DNA from: Methanomassiliicoccales archaeon RumEn M1
Lineage (GTDB): Archaea > Thermoplasmatota > Thermoplasmata > Methanomassiliicoccales > Methanomassiliicoccaceae
Assembly (NCBI GenBank): GCA_001421185.1
Contig: LJKK01000032.1
Location: 1-64,000 of the forward strand
Reading direction: 5' to 3'
DNA length: 64,000 bases
Shown here: positions 34,567 through 44,984 of the stretch, piece after piece
How the letters are laid out: every line of letters begins with the position of its first letter
How positions within the stretch are numbered: the stretch's first letter is position 1
Notes under the pieces: model-generated
What the model saw: the letters and a program-made list of their open reading frames with translations, nothing else
Database searches by the model: none
Told to the model about the DNA's origin: nothing
Translations under genes and position numbers: made by a program

Positions 34567-34650
34567 TGCGAAGGGGGGGATTTGAACCCCCGAGTCCTCG
34601 CGGACACAGGATTAGCAATCCTGCGCCTTGCCAGGCTGGGCTACCTCCGC
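34567..34650 (-). tRNA. tRNA-Ser (anticodon GCT)
   Basis: An 84-base class II tRNA with a long variable arm. Acceptor GCGGAGG pairs with CCTTCGC (one G-U), the anticodon loop is TTGCTAA with anticodon GCT, and the T-loop is TTCAAAT. The base in the discriminator position reads A, where G is usual for archaeal tRNA-Ser. CCA is not encoded. Confidence 0.95.
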
Positions 34651-35514: not shown

Positions 35515-37098
35515 TTAGCTAGTCCTTTCAAGCCCCATGCTAGCGTAGGAGAAGACCTGACGAGGGCATGCTCCCTCACATCGTCTGCACGCGGTGCCCA
35601 GGCACCTCCCGGCATCGATGATGAACTTGTCATCTCTGAACGATATCGCACCCTCCGGGCAGGCCCGGATGCATTGTCGGCATCGGTCGCAGTCCCAGGA
35701 ACCGCTGAGGTGGATCGAGGGCTCGATGGTCGTGAGCGAGCCGCCTATGTCCCAGATGTCCGTCCTTCTCTGCCGCTCGATCTCCGGTGCCGGGCATCGG
35801 GCGGTCGGGACACGGATATCCGCAAGGTCCAGGTTCCGGAGATAGCGCTCCCAGGACATCCCCTCGGTCCAGTAGGCCAGCTCCTGAACGTAGATGTTGC
35901 TGAACACCGGAGAGGATGCGAACATGACATGATGAGCGAGCAGCCGCTCCCTTATATCGTTCAGATGGTCGATCAGTCCCGGATCGATGGCGAGGTCCTT
36001 TGCCAGTTCCAAGGAGGTGTTTCCTATCTGCACTATCCGCCTGGCGGATGCTGGCACCATGCCGACCGACCACGCCTTGGCCGCATCGACGTATGTCCCG
36101 CTGGCCCCCGCCATGTACATCGTTCCTAACATACTCGGGTCCATTCCCGCCCGGTCCATGAGAGTGAGGTGTCCGGCCCTGATCGCTCCAATGGCCTTGC
36201 CCGCCTCCATTAGGTCCGCCCCGTTGAACCGGATCCCACGATCGAGCATGATGTCCCCCCCGGTGATGTGGGGTAGGGCTATCCGCTCCGAGACCAGTCC
36301 TGCGTACACGAGCGCGATGACCCCCGTGCCGGTGATGCCTTCGGCCCGGCGCCCCCTCGATTTCATGGTGTTGCCCCTGAGGCTGATGAGCGCCCCCTCC
36401 TGGGGCTCAAGCCTCTCGTCCAGCACCATCGTCCGCCACCCCTCGGGAGTCTGGACGAGATCGCTAATCGCTCCGGGGGAGGCGAGCATGCCAGCGGTGA
36501 TCGATTGTCCCTCGATGGCCGGGCCCGCGGCGGCCGAACCGGTGAAGACTTCGTCGCCGACCTTTAACGCCATCTCCGCGTTGGTGCCGTAGTCCGTGAC
36601 CATGCACATGTCAGAGTCCAGGAAGCCCGACTTGTACATCATGGCCAGGGCATCGGCGCCGATCTCGTGCCGAATGGCGGGAGGGATGATCACGTCCACG
36701 CACTTCCCCAGGCCGATGGCGTCCCCGCTCACGATGTGCCCGCTTCGGTCCGGAGAGGTTATGCCCTGAGATCTCAGCTTGTTCTCTCCAGCAAATGCCA
36801 GGTCCCGAACCTCGATGCCCTCGAACAGCGAGAGCTGTATGGGATTCCCGCACACCGCGATGCGCTCGAGCCGGTCGGCCCTCAGCGCCTCGATCAACCG
36901 TCGAACCGCCCCCACCAATATCTCGTGGGCCAATGCGGGCCCGCGCTCCATGGCGAAGTCCAGGTGGTCCATGACATTGGCTCCGGGAAGGGGATTGTGG
37001 GACATTATGCACGTCCTGACGACCTTCTTGCGCTGCAGGTCCAGAAGCTGTCCCCTGATCCCACTGGTCCCGATGTCGATCGATATGCCCTGGCTCAT
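35515..37098 (-). CDS. RamA-like corrinoid protein reductive activase
   Basis: A 527-aa protein that fits the ATP-dependent reductive activase RamA, which rescues oxidised Co(II) corrinoid proteins to Co(I) in methylotrophic methanogens. The N-terminal ASKHA/DUF4445-type ATPase core is visible (ISIDIGTSGIRGQLLDL, VTDYGTNAEMALKVGDEVFTGSAAAGPAIEG, MAGASGTYVD). The C-terminal domain has two ferredoxin-type clusters: C470, C473, C476, C480 and C499, C504, C507, C511. It is the last gene of a four-gene operon; its ATG overlaps the TGA of the preceding ATPase gene as ATGA. Confidence 0.88.
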   Translation of the reverse strand: MSQGISIDIGTSGIRGQLLDLQRKKVVRTCIMSHNPLPGANVMDHLDFAMERGPALAHEILVGAVRRLIEALRADRLERIAVCGNPIQLSLFEGIEVRDLAFAGENKLRSQGITSPDRSGHIVSGDAIGLGKCVDVIIPPAIRHEIGADALAMMYKSGFLDSDMCMVTDYGTNAEMALKVGDEVFTGSAAAGPAIEGQSITAGMLASPGAISDLVQTPEGWRTMVLDERLEPQEGALISLRGNTMKSRGRRAEGITGTGVIALVYAGLVSERIALPHITGGDIMLDRGIRFNGADLMEAGKAIGAIRAGHLTLMDRAGMDPSMLGTMYMAGASGTYVDAAKAWSVGMVPASARRIVQIGNTSLELAKDLAIDPGLIDHLNDIRERLLAHHVMFASSPVFSNIYVQELAYWTEGMSWERYLRNLDLADIRVPTARCPAPEIERQRRTDIWDIGGSLTTIEPSIHLSGSWDCDRCRQCIRACPEGAISFRDDKFIIDAGRCLGTACRRCEGACPRQVFSYASMGLERTS

Positions 37099-38813
37099 TG
37101 CTCCTCCGCGGTCACGGTCACCACCGTCTCGGCCACCTTGCGGAGGCCGTACTCCTGATAGGTGATGTCCCTGACATCCACCTTCGTCTGGTACTTCCTC
37201 GCGCGACTGCGTTCCATGTAGTCTCGCACCTCTGAGGTCCCGACGGCCATCGCGAACTCCACGGCATCATCGCGGCTTTGGAACGTTCTCTGCCCGTCGG
37301 GCATGGTAACGCTGAAGGTCATCACCTCCTCCCCCTGCATCATGCGAGGTTCACACCTGACCGCCACTTCCTTGCGCACGAACACGTTTGTGCATACCGC
37401 GCCCACGGCATTGCCGACCTCGTGATGCTCCGGCACGATAATCTCGCACTCCACCCTTCCCTTGAGCAGATCGAGGAAGGGGCGGACGGGGGCGCCGATC
37501 CCCACGATGGGGACCCCGATCCTCAGCACCGTGCGGAGATGAGGTCCACCCTTCAATAGTGCATCTGCATCTCCGCCCTCGGGAAGCATCGTTCCGGTCA
37601 GAGCGGCGGACAGCGACCGCAGCAGCCGGTAGCGTATCGCGTCCTCCAACGACTCGAACAGCTCATCGATCGAGAGGTCGCAGGCCTGAGCCAGGGCGGC
37701 CAAGGCAACGGTCGCGATCCCTTTGTCACCATGATCGCTGCGGCCCCTGGCCCGGAACAGGTCGACGGGCGTGATGCCGTATACTTTACCGGGGACCGGG
37801 AACAGGAAGGAGCGATCCTTCATCTGCCGGGGCGCGTCCGGGGCCAGGCACATGGGATGGATGGCCCTCTGGCCCAGTCTCGGGCGCCTGTCATCGCAAT
37901 AGATCTCGGTGTTGCCGCCCAGGGCGATGGTGGTTATGTCGATTGCCGGAACCCTCAGCCGGGCGCCGCCCACCATCGCCCCCTCCTCCGCCAATCTGAC
38001 CCGTCCGTTCGCGATGAGCGAGATGTCGGTCGTGGTGCCACCAATGTCGATCACAAGGGCGTCCCTTGACCCGGAGAGCAAGCTCCCGCCAACGACGCTC
38101 GCCGCTGGTCCCGACAGAACGGTCATTATTGGCCTCAGGGCGGCTTCCTCGCTCGATATGAGGCTTCCATCCCCCTTTAGAACGTAGGTCGAGGAGACGG
38201 GGACCTTGGTCACCGAGCCGATCGCCCTGATCAGCCCCCTCATGACATGGATCAGCTCGGCGTTCTTGGCCGCCAGGAACAGTCTCTCCTCCATGCCCAG
38301 GACCCCTACCAGCTCGCTCCCGCGGACCACCGTGGCGGTCGGACGGACCCTGAGAACCTCGTTGGCGACCATGACCTCATGCTCGGGATTCCTCACCCCG
38401 AAACGGGCGGATATGGCAAAGGAGCTGCTTTTCACGTGGGCCATCGCCGAGGTCAGCGTCGACAGGTCCAACGGACTAGCCTCGTTTCCAGAAGCGTCGT
38501 GGCCTCCGTCGATCGACACTACCTCGTTGGCATAGTCTATGGGCCGGCTCGGCCTGAGCCCGATGCATATCGCGCACACGTCCTTCTTCGTCCCTTCGAC
38601 CATCGTGTTTGTGGCTAGCGTCGTCGATACGCAGAAGCGCGACAACAGGGAAGGGGCGGGGACGGATAGTGAGTGGAAGCACCTCAGCACGCTCCCCGCG
38701 AGATCGCCCGGATCGGTGGGCACCTTGGCAACCCTTAGAACGGCCCTTGCAGGCAGCTCTATGAGGGCTCCGTCGGTGTAGGTGCCTCCGACATCGATGC
38801 CTACCGCGTACAT
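37095..38813 (-). CDS. Hydantoinase/oxoprolinase-family ATPase
   Basis: A 572-aa HyuA-type protein. Landmarks: GIDVGGTYTDGALIELP at the start, STTLATNTMVEGTKK, the second ATP site IDIGGTTTDISLIANG, LSGPAASVVGG and RIGVPIVGIGAPVRPF. Family members cleave amide rings such as 5-oxoproline or (N-methyl)hydantoin with ATP, usually with a HyuB partner; none is encoded here. In this operon it stands between a corrinoid protein (31 bases upstream) and the RamA-like activase (ATGA overlap). It may process a substrate or act as an ATP-dependent activator; both are inference. Confidence 0.85.
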   Translation of the reverse strand: MYAVGIDVGGTYTDGALIELPARAVLRVAKVPTDPGDLAGSVLRCFHSLSVPAPSLLSRFCVSTTLATNTMVEGTKKDVCAICIGLRPSRPIDYANEVVSIDGGHDASGNEASPLDLSTLTSAMAHVKSSSFAISARFGVRNPEHEVMVANEVLRVRPTATVVRGSELVGVLGMEERLFLAAKNAELIHVMRGLIRAIGSVTKVPVSSTYVLKGDGSLISSEEAALRPIMTVLSGPAASVVGGSLLSGSRDALVIDIGGTTTDISLIANGRVRLAEEGAMVGGARLRVPAIDITTIALGGNTEIYCDDRRPRLGQRAIHPMCLAPDAPRQMKDRSFLFPVPGKVYGITPVDLFRARGRSDHGDKGIATVALAALAQACDLSIDELFESLEDAIRYRLLRSLSAALTGTMLPEGGDADALLKGGPHLRTVLRIGVPIVGIGAPVRPFLDLLKGRVECEIIVPEHHEVGNAVGAVCTNVFVRKEVAVRCEPRMMQGEEVMTFSVTMPDGQRTFQSRDDAVEFAMAVGTSEVRDYMERSRARKYQTKVDVRDITYQEYGLRKVAETVVTVTAEEQ

Positions 38814-38844
38814 GCTATCAAGAAAAAAGGGAAGGGGTTTCGCT

Positions 38845-39678
38845 CTAATGGAGCGTCTTCCTTGCTTCCTTCCAGTCCTTCCCTGAGCATACCTCCGTGG
38901 CGATCTTCACTGCGTCCAGCGGGGACCTTCCATAGATGGAGTTGCCGAATGTCTCCACATAGCTCCTCGACACCGCCGCGCCTCCGCATGCGATCGGAAC
39001 GCTAAGTCCCTCTTCTTCCAGCGTTTCCGCCGTTTTCTTCAGTCCTGCTTTGGTGGTGCTCATCAAGGTGGAGCCGTTGACCATCTGTAGGCCCTTCTCC
39101 TTGACCGCCGACACGACCGTATCGGCCGCCACGTCCCTTCCCAGGTCCAGAACGTCAAAGCCGTTGGCCCTGAGAATGGCGACCACGATGTTCTTCCCGA
39201 TATCGTGGAGGTCGCCCTCGGCAACGAAGGAGGCGATCTTGCCCTTCGTCGGGACATCTCCCAGCTTCTCCTGAGCGAGCTTGATGCCGCCTTGCATAGC
39301 ATTGTTGGACATCAGGATCTCCGGGACGAAGGCGTCCCCGCGGTCGTATAGCTCGCACTGGGTCTGGATGCCGGGCATGAGCGCGTTGGTGACCACGTCC
39401 AATGGGTCCTTGCCCTGGGCGATGGATGCCGCCACCAGCTCCTCCACCTTGCTCCGGTTGCCTGCTATGACCGCGTCGGAGATCGAAGCATACATGGCAT
39501 CTCGGGGGCGGTGCTTAGCCTTGACCTCCTCTATGGTGCCGACCTTTGCGCTCTTGGAACCGATCTCGAAGCCAAGTTCGGCGAGCATGCCCTCTTGGAT
39601 AAGCCGCCTGTAGCGTGCGGGGTCCCTCTCCCGGAATTCCAACAGCTCCTCTGCCAGAAGGTCCATGTGCCTGACCAT
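38845..39678 (-). CDS. Corrinoid protein of methyltransferase system (MtaC-like)
   Basis: A 277-aa cobalamin-binding protein. The B12-binding Rossmann domain has D156-L-H158-D-I-G161 (lower-ligand histidine), GSTLMSTT and CGGAAVS. Before it is the helical cap (KDPLDVVTNALMPGIQTQCELYDRGDAFVPEILMSNNAMQGG), closest in pattern to MtaC of methanol methyltransferase. An extra N-terminal helical extension of about 50 residues precedes the cap. It would carry the methyl group between the unknown donor-specific enzyme and the CoM methyltransferase. Its ATG overlaps the stop of the upstream gene (TAATG), implying coupled translation. Confidence 0.92.
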   Translation of the reverse strand: MVRHMDLLAEELLEFRERDPARYRRLIQEGMLAELGFEIGSKSAKVGTIEEVKAKHRPRDAMYASISDAVIAGNRSKVEELVAASIAQGKDPLDVVTNALMPGIQTQCELYDRGDAFVPEILMSNNAMQGGIKLAQEKLGDVPTKGKIASFVAEGDLHDIGKNIVVAILRANGFDVLDLGRDVAADTVVSAVKEKGLQMVNGSTLMSTTKAGLKKTAETLEEEGLSVPIACGGAAVSRSYVETFGNSIYGRSPLDAVKIATEVCSGKDWKEARKTLH

Positions 39679-40778
39679 TACTGACCACCTCCCAGGCTCT
39701 CGGCCTTCATCCGCCTTGCTTTACCCGCCCCTATCTCCCTGACCATGGACTCGATGTCATCATAGTCCGGTATGGGTGTTTCCTTGCATGCTCTCACAAA
39801 TGCCTTCAGATTCTCCAGCGGCGTTCCGTAGGACACATCGCACGACGAACCTACGATGTCCACCCCCTGGCGGATGCATTCCACCGTCCGGGCATACACC
39901 TGCTCGGGAGTCCCATTGGGCATCAGGTCGATGACGTCCAGACTACCCAGTATGGACATGCGGTTGCCCAGCGCCTTGCGCACGTACCATACTGGCACGT
40001 TATCGAACGAGAAACAGTCCAGATTGCTCTCTCGGACGTAAGGGAGCAGTTCGCTGGTGTTGCCGCAGATGTGGAGGATCTGCGGAATGCTGATCTCCGC
40101 AGCCATCCTCTTATGGTAGGGTAGAACGAATTCCTTGTAGGTCTCCCCCGAGATCAGGTCGCCCGATGCTGAAGGGTCGGCAGGGAAGAGGGCGTGGGCG
40201 CCATACGAGGCCTGCAGCTTTCCGTACTCGATACAGAAGTCGCAGGCCGCGCTGATGAATGCGTGCGCTTTGTCTGGATCGGTCACGGTCATCATGACCA
40301 AGTTCTCCACCCCTGCGATATGTCCAGCGACCGTGAACGGAGCGGTCAGGACAGGTAGGATCGGCAGCCCTCCGTCGTACCTCCTGTGCAATATATCGAT
40401 CGCGCCCAACACATACGGGATACGTCCCGTTTCCTCCAGGTTGTCGGGCCAGGTGATCTCCTTAGGGTCGGTATATGCTGGGGCCATGACGGGGGGCCTG
40501 TCCGGCTTGTTCCAATCTAGCTTGCATCCAAGTACCTCTGCCTCAAGGGAGATGTCGAACTGGGGCCGAGCGGCTTCGATGCCGCACACTTCGAAGGGCG
40601 CCGCCGCCAGATCGGCCATCATCTTCGAGTCATAATGGGCCTTTGGCCACTCGGCGTTCGCGAACTTCATAAGCTCGTTGGTCGTCTGCGCCAGAGGATT
40701 TGCGGGTGGGACATAATCCACTCTTCCCCCTAAAATGGCAGAGAGTACTCTACGTGTTGGTGTCATTTCACTTGCCAT
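39678..40778 (-). CDS. Methylcobamide:CoM methyltransferase-like protein (MtaA/MtbA family)
   Basis: A 366-aa UroD-fold protein with zinc ligands H236-x-C238 (LHICGN) and C313 ([10 protein letters not shown]), as in MtaA and MtbA. It would transfer the methyl group from the corrinoid protein encoded just downstream to coenzyme M. The ATG at 40778 follows a strong SD (GGAGGAGAAACT). It is the first gene of an operon that continues with a corrinoid protein, a hydantoinase-type ATPase and a RamA-like activase. The donor methyltransferase (a MtaB or MttB type) is not in the operon. Confidence 0.9.
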
Positions 40779-40825
40779 AGTTTCTCCTCCTGTGTTCCTC
40801 CATTCGCCTTTGAGGTCGAGAATGG

Positions 40826-40884
40826 TCGGTTAACGTAATACAAACCGATTGCTACTGTAAAAAATTACCTAATGGAATTATATG
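40826..40884 (-). promoter_or_regulatory. Promoter and inverted repeat of the methyl-transfer operon
   Basis: On the minus strand a TATA-like catataatt (40876-40884) lies about 100 bases before the first start codon, giving a leader of about 75 bases. Within the leader, TCGGTT at 40826-40831 and AACCGA at 40843-40848 form an inverted repeat with an 11-base spacer, where a repressor could bind. Confidence 0.4.
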
Positions 40885-41009
40885 ATGCTTAAGTGAATCA
40901 TTACGGTGATCGAGCGGCGACGAAGTGATGAGTCGGCCATTCATTTCATGAAAAAAGGGGCCGCCCAATCGAGTTCGGGACGGCACCCTCTGCGGGGGAA
41001 GGGGTTTGC

Positions 41010-43518: not shown

Positions 43519-44984
<1,466 letters not shown>

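Follow-up and report, generated by a model that had tools for sequence, protein, structure and literature searches.

Which protein takes the methyl group from its donor in a methyl-transfer operon that carries no gene for a donor methyltransferase (B component)? The question arises from four intact genes on the reverse strand of the window, the whole 64,000-nucleotide stretch analysed here from the draft genome of Methanomassiliicoccales archaeon RumEn M1 (the host, G000; 2.1 Mb, 93.7% complete). From 40778 to 35515, the genes encode a UroD methyltransferase (MtA), a corrinoid protein (MtC), a HyuA-type ATPase (HyuX) and an activase (Ram) (Table 1). A preliminary description of this DNA reported four tightly joined genes of these families with the expected zinc, corrinoid and two ferredoxin-cluster ligands, and proposed that HyuX stands in place of the B component. 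The families and the close spacing are borne out by intact reading frames, profile scores and gene junctions, and all of the ligands are found in MtA, MtC and Ram; together, profiles and ligand motifs support a methyl-transfer module. The proposal for HyuX fares less well. The operon is a real, conserved and apparently undescribed variant of corrinoid/UroD methyl-transfer systems. What sets it apart is the MtA-MtC-Ram core without a B component rather than the HyuA-type gene. As the preliminary description had supposed, searches of the open-access literature turned up no account of the operon.

Table 1. Genes and intergenic features of the operon, with window coordinates.
Feature	Description	Coordinates	Strand	Basis
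MtA	MtaA/CmuA-family (URO-D fold) zinc methyltransferase, 366 aa	39678-40778	(-)	Profiles, closest PDB structure, tree
MtC	MtaC-supergroup corrinoid protein, 277 aa	38845-39678	(-)	Profiles, closest PDB structure, tree
HyuX	HyuA-type ASKHA ATPase, 572 aa, without HyuB	37095-38813	(-)	Profiles, motifs, fold
Ram	RamA-type corrinoid-protein reductive activase, 527 aa	35515-37098	(-)	Profiles, motifs
MtC-HyuX gap	31 bases, pyrimidine/T-rich tract CCCCTTCCCTTTTTTCTT, possible partial terminator	38814-38844	(-)	Similar tract in orthologous gaps
Region upstream of MtA	AT-rich, TATA-like element and GGAGGAG ribosome-binding site	40779-40938	(-)	Sequence reading

MtA and MtC share one base (TAATG), MtC and HyuX are separated by the 31-base gap, and HyuX and Ram overlap at ATGA. 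A single four-gene operon is likely. The AT-rich region upstream of MtA is likely its promoter, separate from that of pyrG. T-rich tracts can terminate archaeal transcription. Such a pyrimidine tract follows MtC in the orthologous gaps read, most clearly in the window, G011, G013 and G017. It resembles an archaeal terminator, so co-transcription of MtA-MtC with HyuX-Ram may be incomplete; because of this tract, MtA and MtC may be made in excess of HyuX and Ram. Rfam finds no riboswitch near the operon. Between 34500 and 46000 it reports a tRNA (34567-34650) and, as the sole rRNA, a 16S gene at 43519-44984 (-).

The gene set is held by nine Methanomassiliicoccaceae genomes, the host included, with Methanomassiliicoccus sp. 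UBA345 and UBA6 among the HyuX-bearing relatives. The order pyrG-MtA-MtC-HyuX-Ram-aIF2beta recurs in G011, G013, G014, G017, G018, G020 and G022, and in part in G016, where the contig ends. Within the family, identity to the window proteins is 86-95% for MtA, 73-87% for MtC, 67-84% for Ram and 57-81% for HyuX. Relative to the closest relative (G011), dN/dS is 0.09 for MtC, 0.12 for Ram, 0.15 for HyuX and 0.04 for MtA, which is under strong purifying selection; the G020 comparisons of HyuX and Ram were out of frame and are left out. Because the gene order recurs across the family and dN/dS falls at 0.04-0.15, the gene set is not a chance arrangement. Six other family genomes contain no HyuX orthologue, and the same six also have no UroD match at the level of MtA.

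Outside the family, a search with MtA of 295 genomes from the phylum of Methanosarcina sp. UBA11020 finds it at 75-80% identity in four genomes, called Methanosarcina-like partly on their gene neighbours, and as a broken copy in UBA11020 itself (G148). The loci of the four place MtA-MtC-Ram beside pdxS and a PAP2 protein, with neither HyuX nor a B gene (MtC 53-56% and Ram 57-59% identical to the window proteins); in the G375 locus gene picking does not show MtC, though space for it is present. The HyuA-type genes of the Methanosarcina-like genomes sit elsewhere and are ~40% identical to HyuX over its first ~325 residues. Because these loci carry MtA-MtC-Ram without HyuX, the core consists of these three genes and HyuX is a lineage-specific insert, gained around the Methanomassiliicoccaceae or else lost elsewhere. 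The identity of MtA between the two lineages compares with 38% in one MtaA-type comparison and 49% in one MtaB comparison, and this unusual conservation points to a demanding, specific function. A more distant locus (L199 4587-12584, in G351) contains an MtA-like UroD (41%), a corrinoid protein, DUF1847 and an NMT1-type ABC transporter; because most of the Fe-S cysteines are gone from its Ram homologue, this locus was left out of the inference of function.

No B gene lies adjacent to the operon in the host, as the preliminary description had stated, and none lies beside the orthologous loci read, in two different contexts (pyrG/aIF2beta and pdxS). Elsewhere, the host genome encodes three to four copies of MtaB and two of MtmB, and each MtaB read has its own mtaC adjacent. 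MttB and MtbB were not found in the host genome at its 93.7% completeness, so neither is required. Across the family, MtmB occurs in all 15 genomes searched, and MtaB occurs in 9/9 operon-bearing genomes and is kept by most relatives without the operon. MttB or MtbB is present in six of nine operon-bearing genomes versus none of six operon-free genomes (one-sided p 0.017, uncorrected for kinship, genome size and completeness). Because MtsA does both half-reactions and CmuA, of the same family as MtA, is an MT1, the missing B gene is no paradox. Contrary to the premise that a B component accompanies the known systems, MtsA-type enzymes act as both MT1 and MT2 (PMC8630106; Tallant 2001 as cited in PMC4153887).

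MtA scores 233.8 bits against URO-D and 450.6 bits against TIGR01463 (cut-off 235.4), and its closest PDB structure is 4ay7 (MtaA). The zinc ligands are His236 and Cys238 (40062-40073) and Cys313 (39837-39848), a His-Cys-Cys site, and a C-terminal extension of ~30 aa is conserved. In UroD methyltransferase trees, MtA and its Methanosarcina-like orthologues form their own clade (support 100/100). Identity as MtaA is rejected, since MtA lies outside that clade (AU p 2.5e-4) and reaches 257.7 bits against the equivalog NF040654 (cut-off 400; Methanosarcinaceae MtaA 485-543). Identity as MtsA is likewise rejected (AU p 0.0019), where the MtsBA reference (locus L155) was assigned by gene context, not by experiment. 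MtbA is rejected on its profile (NF041608, 209.4 bits against a cut-off of 600); MtA does not group with it in the best tree, and the tree test is borderline (AU p 0.051). His-Cys-Cys zinc sites are argued to mark S/Se methyltransferases, and carboxylate-containing sites are linked to O-demethylases (PMC10418091). An O-demethylase of the MtoB/VdmB type is rejected, as the ligands are not carboxylate and the locus has no MtoA-like gene. A second MtA-clade paralogue of G014 lies outside the operon (L078, G014:C12:550225-551220), and a plasmid search with MtA gave nothing beyond 26% matches.

The MtA clade joins UroDs of Desulfobacterota (the phylum of a Desulfovibrionaceae genome) in a 98/97 branch. 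Most of these loci contain corrinoid proteins, and several contain a Pterin_bind methyltransferase, a RACo-type activase or TRAP transporters. Because these Desulfobacterota are not expected to use coenzyme M, and because of the corrinoid and Pterin_bind neighbours, their MtA-like protein more likely works on the donor side, though further UroD paralogues are also present in these loci and keep this short of proof.

MtC contains B12-binding and B12-binding_2 domains, the corrinoid motif DLHDIG at residues 156-161 (39196-39213) and an N-terminal extension of ~23 aa relative to MtaC. Its closest PDB structure is 2i2x_B (MtaC), and it scores 217.0 bits against the MtaC equivalog (cut-off 450). 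MtC forms its own clade inside the MtaC supergroup (SH-aLRT 100), apart from MtsB, MtmC and MttC, and this placement is the main point favouring an MtaB-type partner. Ram scores 673.9 bits against TIGR04270 (cut-off 500), with RACo_C_ter, and carries two C-terminal 4Fe-4S motifs: CxxCxxCxxxCP at 470-481 (35656-35691) and CX4CX2CX3CP at 499-512 (35563-35604).

Like MtsA/MtsB of Methanosarcina barkeri, the core combines a UroD methyltransferase with a His-Cys-Cys zinc site and a corrinoid protein, without a separate B; unlike that pair, MtA falls outside the MtsA clade, MtC is of MtaC type rather than MtsB type, and Ram is linked in the operon. The methanol proteins MtaA and MtaC provide the closest structures and belong to the same superfamilies, but here MtaB is missing from the operon, both proteins fall below the equivalog cut-offs and MtA is outside the MtaA clade. 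Ram shares with RamA the profile match, the ASKHA domain and both 4Fe-4S motifs, yet is 46-47% identical to other RamA-type proteins, compared with 57-59% for its own orthologue in Methanosarcina-like genomes. Type 1 mlp clusters (Kountz and Balskus, PMC10418091) also pair an SCMT homologue with a corrinoid protein and Ram/RACE, have no H4folate methylase and show an S/Se-type zinc site; they contain at least Mlp2 and Mlp3, whereas the operon has one UroD gene.

HyuX consists of Hydant_A_N and Hydantoinase_A domains with intact phosphate-1 (38772-38801), phosphate-2 (38025-38054) and GIGAP (37488-37502) motifs. Its AlphaFold model (mean pLDDT 77.6) best matches N-methylhydantoinase (9h03, TM 0.70) and acetone carboxylase subunits, and at a lower level numerous other proteins of the ASKHA fold, among them RACo, a corrinoid activator. 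These domains, motifs and fold are those of the HyuA of N-methylhydantoinase and 5-oxoprolinase; unlike those enzymes, HyuX has no HyuB in its host, scores far under the cut-offs of the HyuA-type equivalogs and forms a separate long-branched clade. The preliminary description was right that HyuB is missing: PF02538 is absent from 19/19 Methanomassiliicoccales genomes searched (the host, 93.7% complete, and 18 others). In G022, HyuX (L054 7889-9007) has an in-frame loss of ~200 residues that includes the phosphate-2 motif, together with D7G, beside intact MtA, MtC and Ram, and in G014 HyuX is frameshifted near its end; both defects come from single draft assemblies, in which assembly error is possible. 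Because HyuB is absent throughout and phosphate-2 is lost in G022 beside intact neighbours, a hydantoinase role for HyuX appears very unlikely.

HyuA-type genes recur near methyltransferase genes elsewhere. Across the order, 16/20 HyuA-type loci read lie within a few kb of a gene for a UroD or corrinoid protein, and one more has a Ram gene; many belong to one order-wide cluster, often with a CobW GTPase, and the 20 loci are mostly orthologous rather than independent. Examples of this cluster (L176 1496-7572, L160 6527-12629, L046 6770-15897) contain a corrinoid protein, a diverged UroD, often the CobW GTPase, a cysteine-containing ORF of ~104 aa and the HyuA-type ATPase, and several loci also encode DGC-domain or other small proteins. 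Among Methanosarcinaceae HyuA-type loci, some of them redundant, eight of 19 are near mtaCB or a fused corrinoid-UroD gene and 11 are not. Some of the eight also contain a chaperonin-like gene. The Methanosarcinaceae loci L041 (9935-11545), L043 (9918-11567) and L211 (8996-10603) have a divergent thermosome/CCT-like gene directly 3' of a HyuA-type gene, with fused corrinoid-UroD genes close by; the L043 protein scores 343 bits against an archaeal thermosome cut-off of 671. Earlier papers note hydantoinase-like genes close to methyltransferase loci and give them no function (PMC9768040, PMC11619418). The association of HyuA-type genes with corrinoid/UroD loci lends support to a possible accessory role for HyuX.

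The explanation that best accommodates these data, at somewhat less than an even chance, is that MtA serves as its own B component by MtsA-like logic, Ram activates MtC and HyuX is an auxiliary ATPase. By analogy with its family, Ram would draw on ATP and its iron-sulfur clusters to convert the MtC cobalt to Co(I). MtA, through its His-Cys-Cys zinc, would most likely methylate MtC from a small S-, Se- or other soft methyl donor. Transfer onward to coenzyme M would fall to MtA as well, or to an MtbA/MtaA-type enzyme encoded in the genome. HyuX, with its ASKHA fold, would most likely assist in the loading, reactivation or upkeep of either the corrinoid protein or Ram. The direction of transfer, coenzyme M as acceptor, the substrate class and the role of HyuX are all inferred. 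Demethylation of a soft donor by MtA itself is the simplest mechanism because of the MtsA precedent and the S/Se-type site. Consistent with this explanation are the B-less, HyuX-less core in Methanosarcina-like genomes, the retained His-Cys-Cys site, the strong purifying selection on MtA and the probable donor-side context in Desulfobacterota. Against it, MtC lies in the MtaC supergroup rather than with MtsB, a placement no less compatible with an MtaB partner, and the extra UroD paralogues of the Desulfobacterota loci could be the true MT1.

That fit to MtaB raises the possibility, somewhat unlikely as a whole, that MtA-MtC-Ram is an auxiliary methanol (or methylamine) branch in which an unlinked MtaB charges MtC and MtA is an alternative MT2. 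The closest structure of MtC is MtaC, MtaB is universal among the operon-bearing family genomes, and the M. luminyensis mtaA annotated as methanol MT2 (PMC5688252) may be the MtA gene. However, the host MtaB genes read are each paired with their own mtaC, the operon is not needed for methanol, as most operon-free relatives keep MtaB, and MtA is outside the MtaA clade. It is improbable that MtA is a plain coenzyme M methyltransferase whose donor enzyme is a B protein of a new family, encoded elsewhere and so far unrecognised. Unlinked B components do occur, and MttB/MtbB are commoner in operon-bearing relatives, but the host itself has neither, and the orthologous loci read have no B gene in either context.

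For HyuX, the reading of the preliminary description, in which it works on the donor side with an N-methylated cyclic amide or a similar compound as substrate, is very improbable. Its place in the conserved gene order, its retained ASKHA motifs and its N-methylhydantoinase-like fold would suit such a role. In opposition, orthologous loci without HyuX still have no B gene, HyuB is missing from the genome and the order sample, and HyuX is the fastest evolving of the four proteins and internally deleted in G022, so that the comparative data appear largely to have refuted it already. Demethylation of hydantoin or N-methyl amides is judged unlikely for the same absence of HyuB and the HyuX-less core. 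The alternative offered alongside it, HyuX as a second activator, is favoured. That HyuX is an evolutionary passenger whose function has nothing to do with methyl transfer is distinctly unlikely, though it would not conflict with the best explanation of the core: HyuX is absent from Methanosarcina-like loci, degenerate in G022 and frameshifted in G014, but its dN/dS is 0.15, its ATGA coupling to Ram is present in the window and in relatives, and other corrinoid/UroD loci also have HyuA-type genes of this kind as neighbours. Against the auxiliary role assigned to HyuX in the best explanation, the 11 Methanosarcinaceae loci lie away from methyltransferases, and the evidence is one of association.

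In its broadest form, which is unlikely to hold in full, the proposal would make HyuB-less HyuA-type ATPases a general, so far unrecognised class of factors that mature or reactivate the UroD/corrinoid methyltransferases of methylotrophic archaea, with HyuX serving MtC/Ram in this operon and its counterparts elsewhere acting alongside CobW-type GTPases or chaperonin-like proteins. MtA-MtC-Ram would then be a new bifunctional system for a soft methyl donor that has yet to be assigned to a methanogen enzyme; methylated forms of sulfur, selenium or trivalent arsenic are possible candidates. Dimethylarsenic(III) is demethylated by M. luminyensis CZDD1, an activity with no enzyme assigned (PMC10579292); connecting it with this operon is speculation. 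Should MtA-MtC-Ram deal with its own donor, methylotrophic methanogens of two phyla would share a methane-linked methyl source that is currently hidden by the annotation "MtaA". The association of HyuB-less HyuA-type proteins with corrinoid systems, if true, would provide a large and probably misnamed protein family with a function open to testing.
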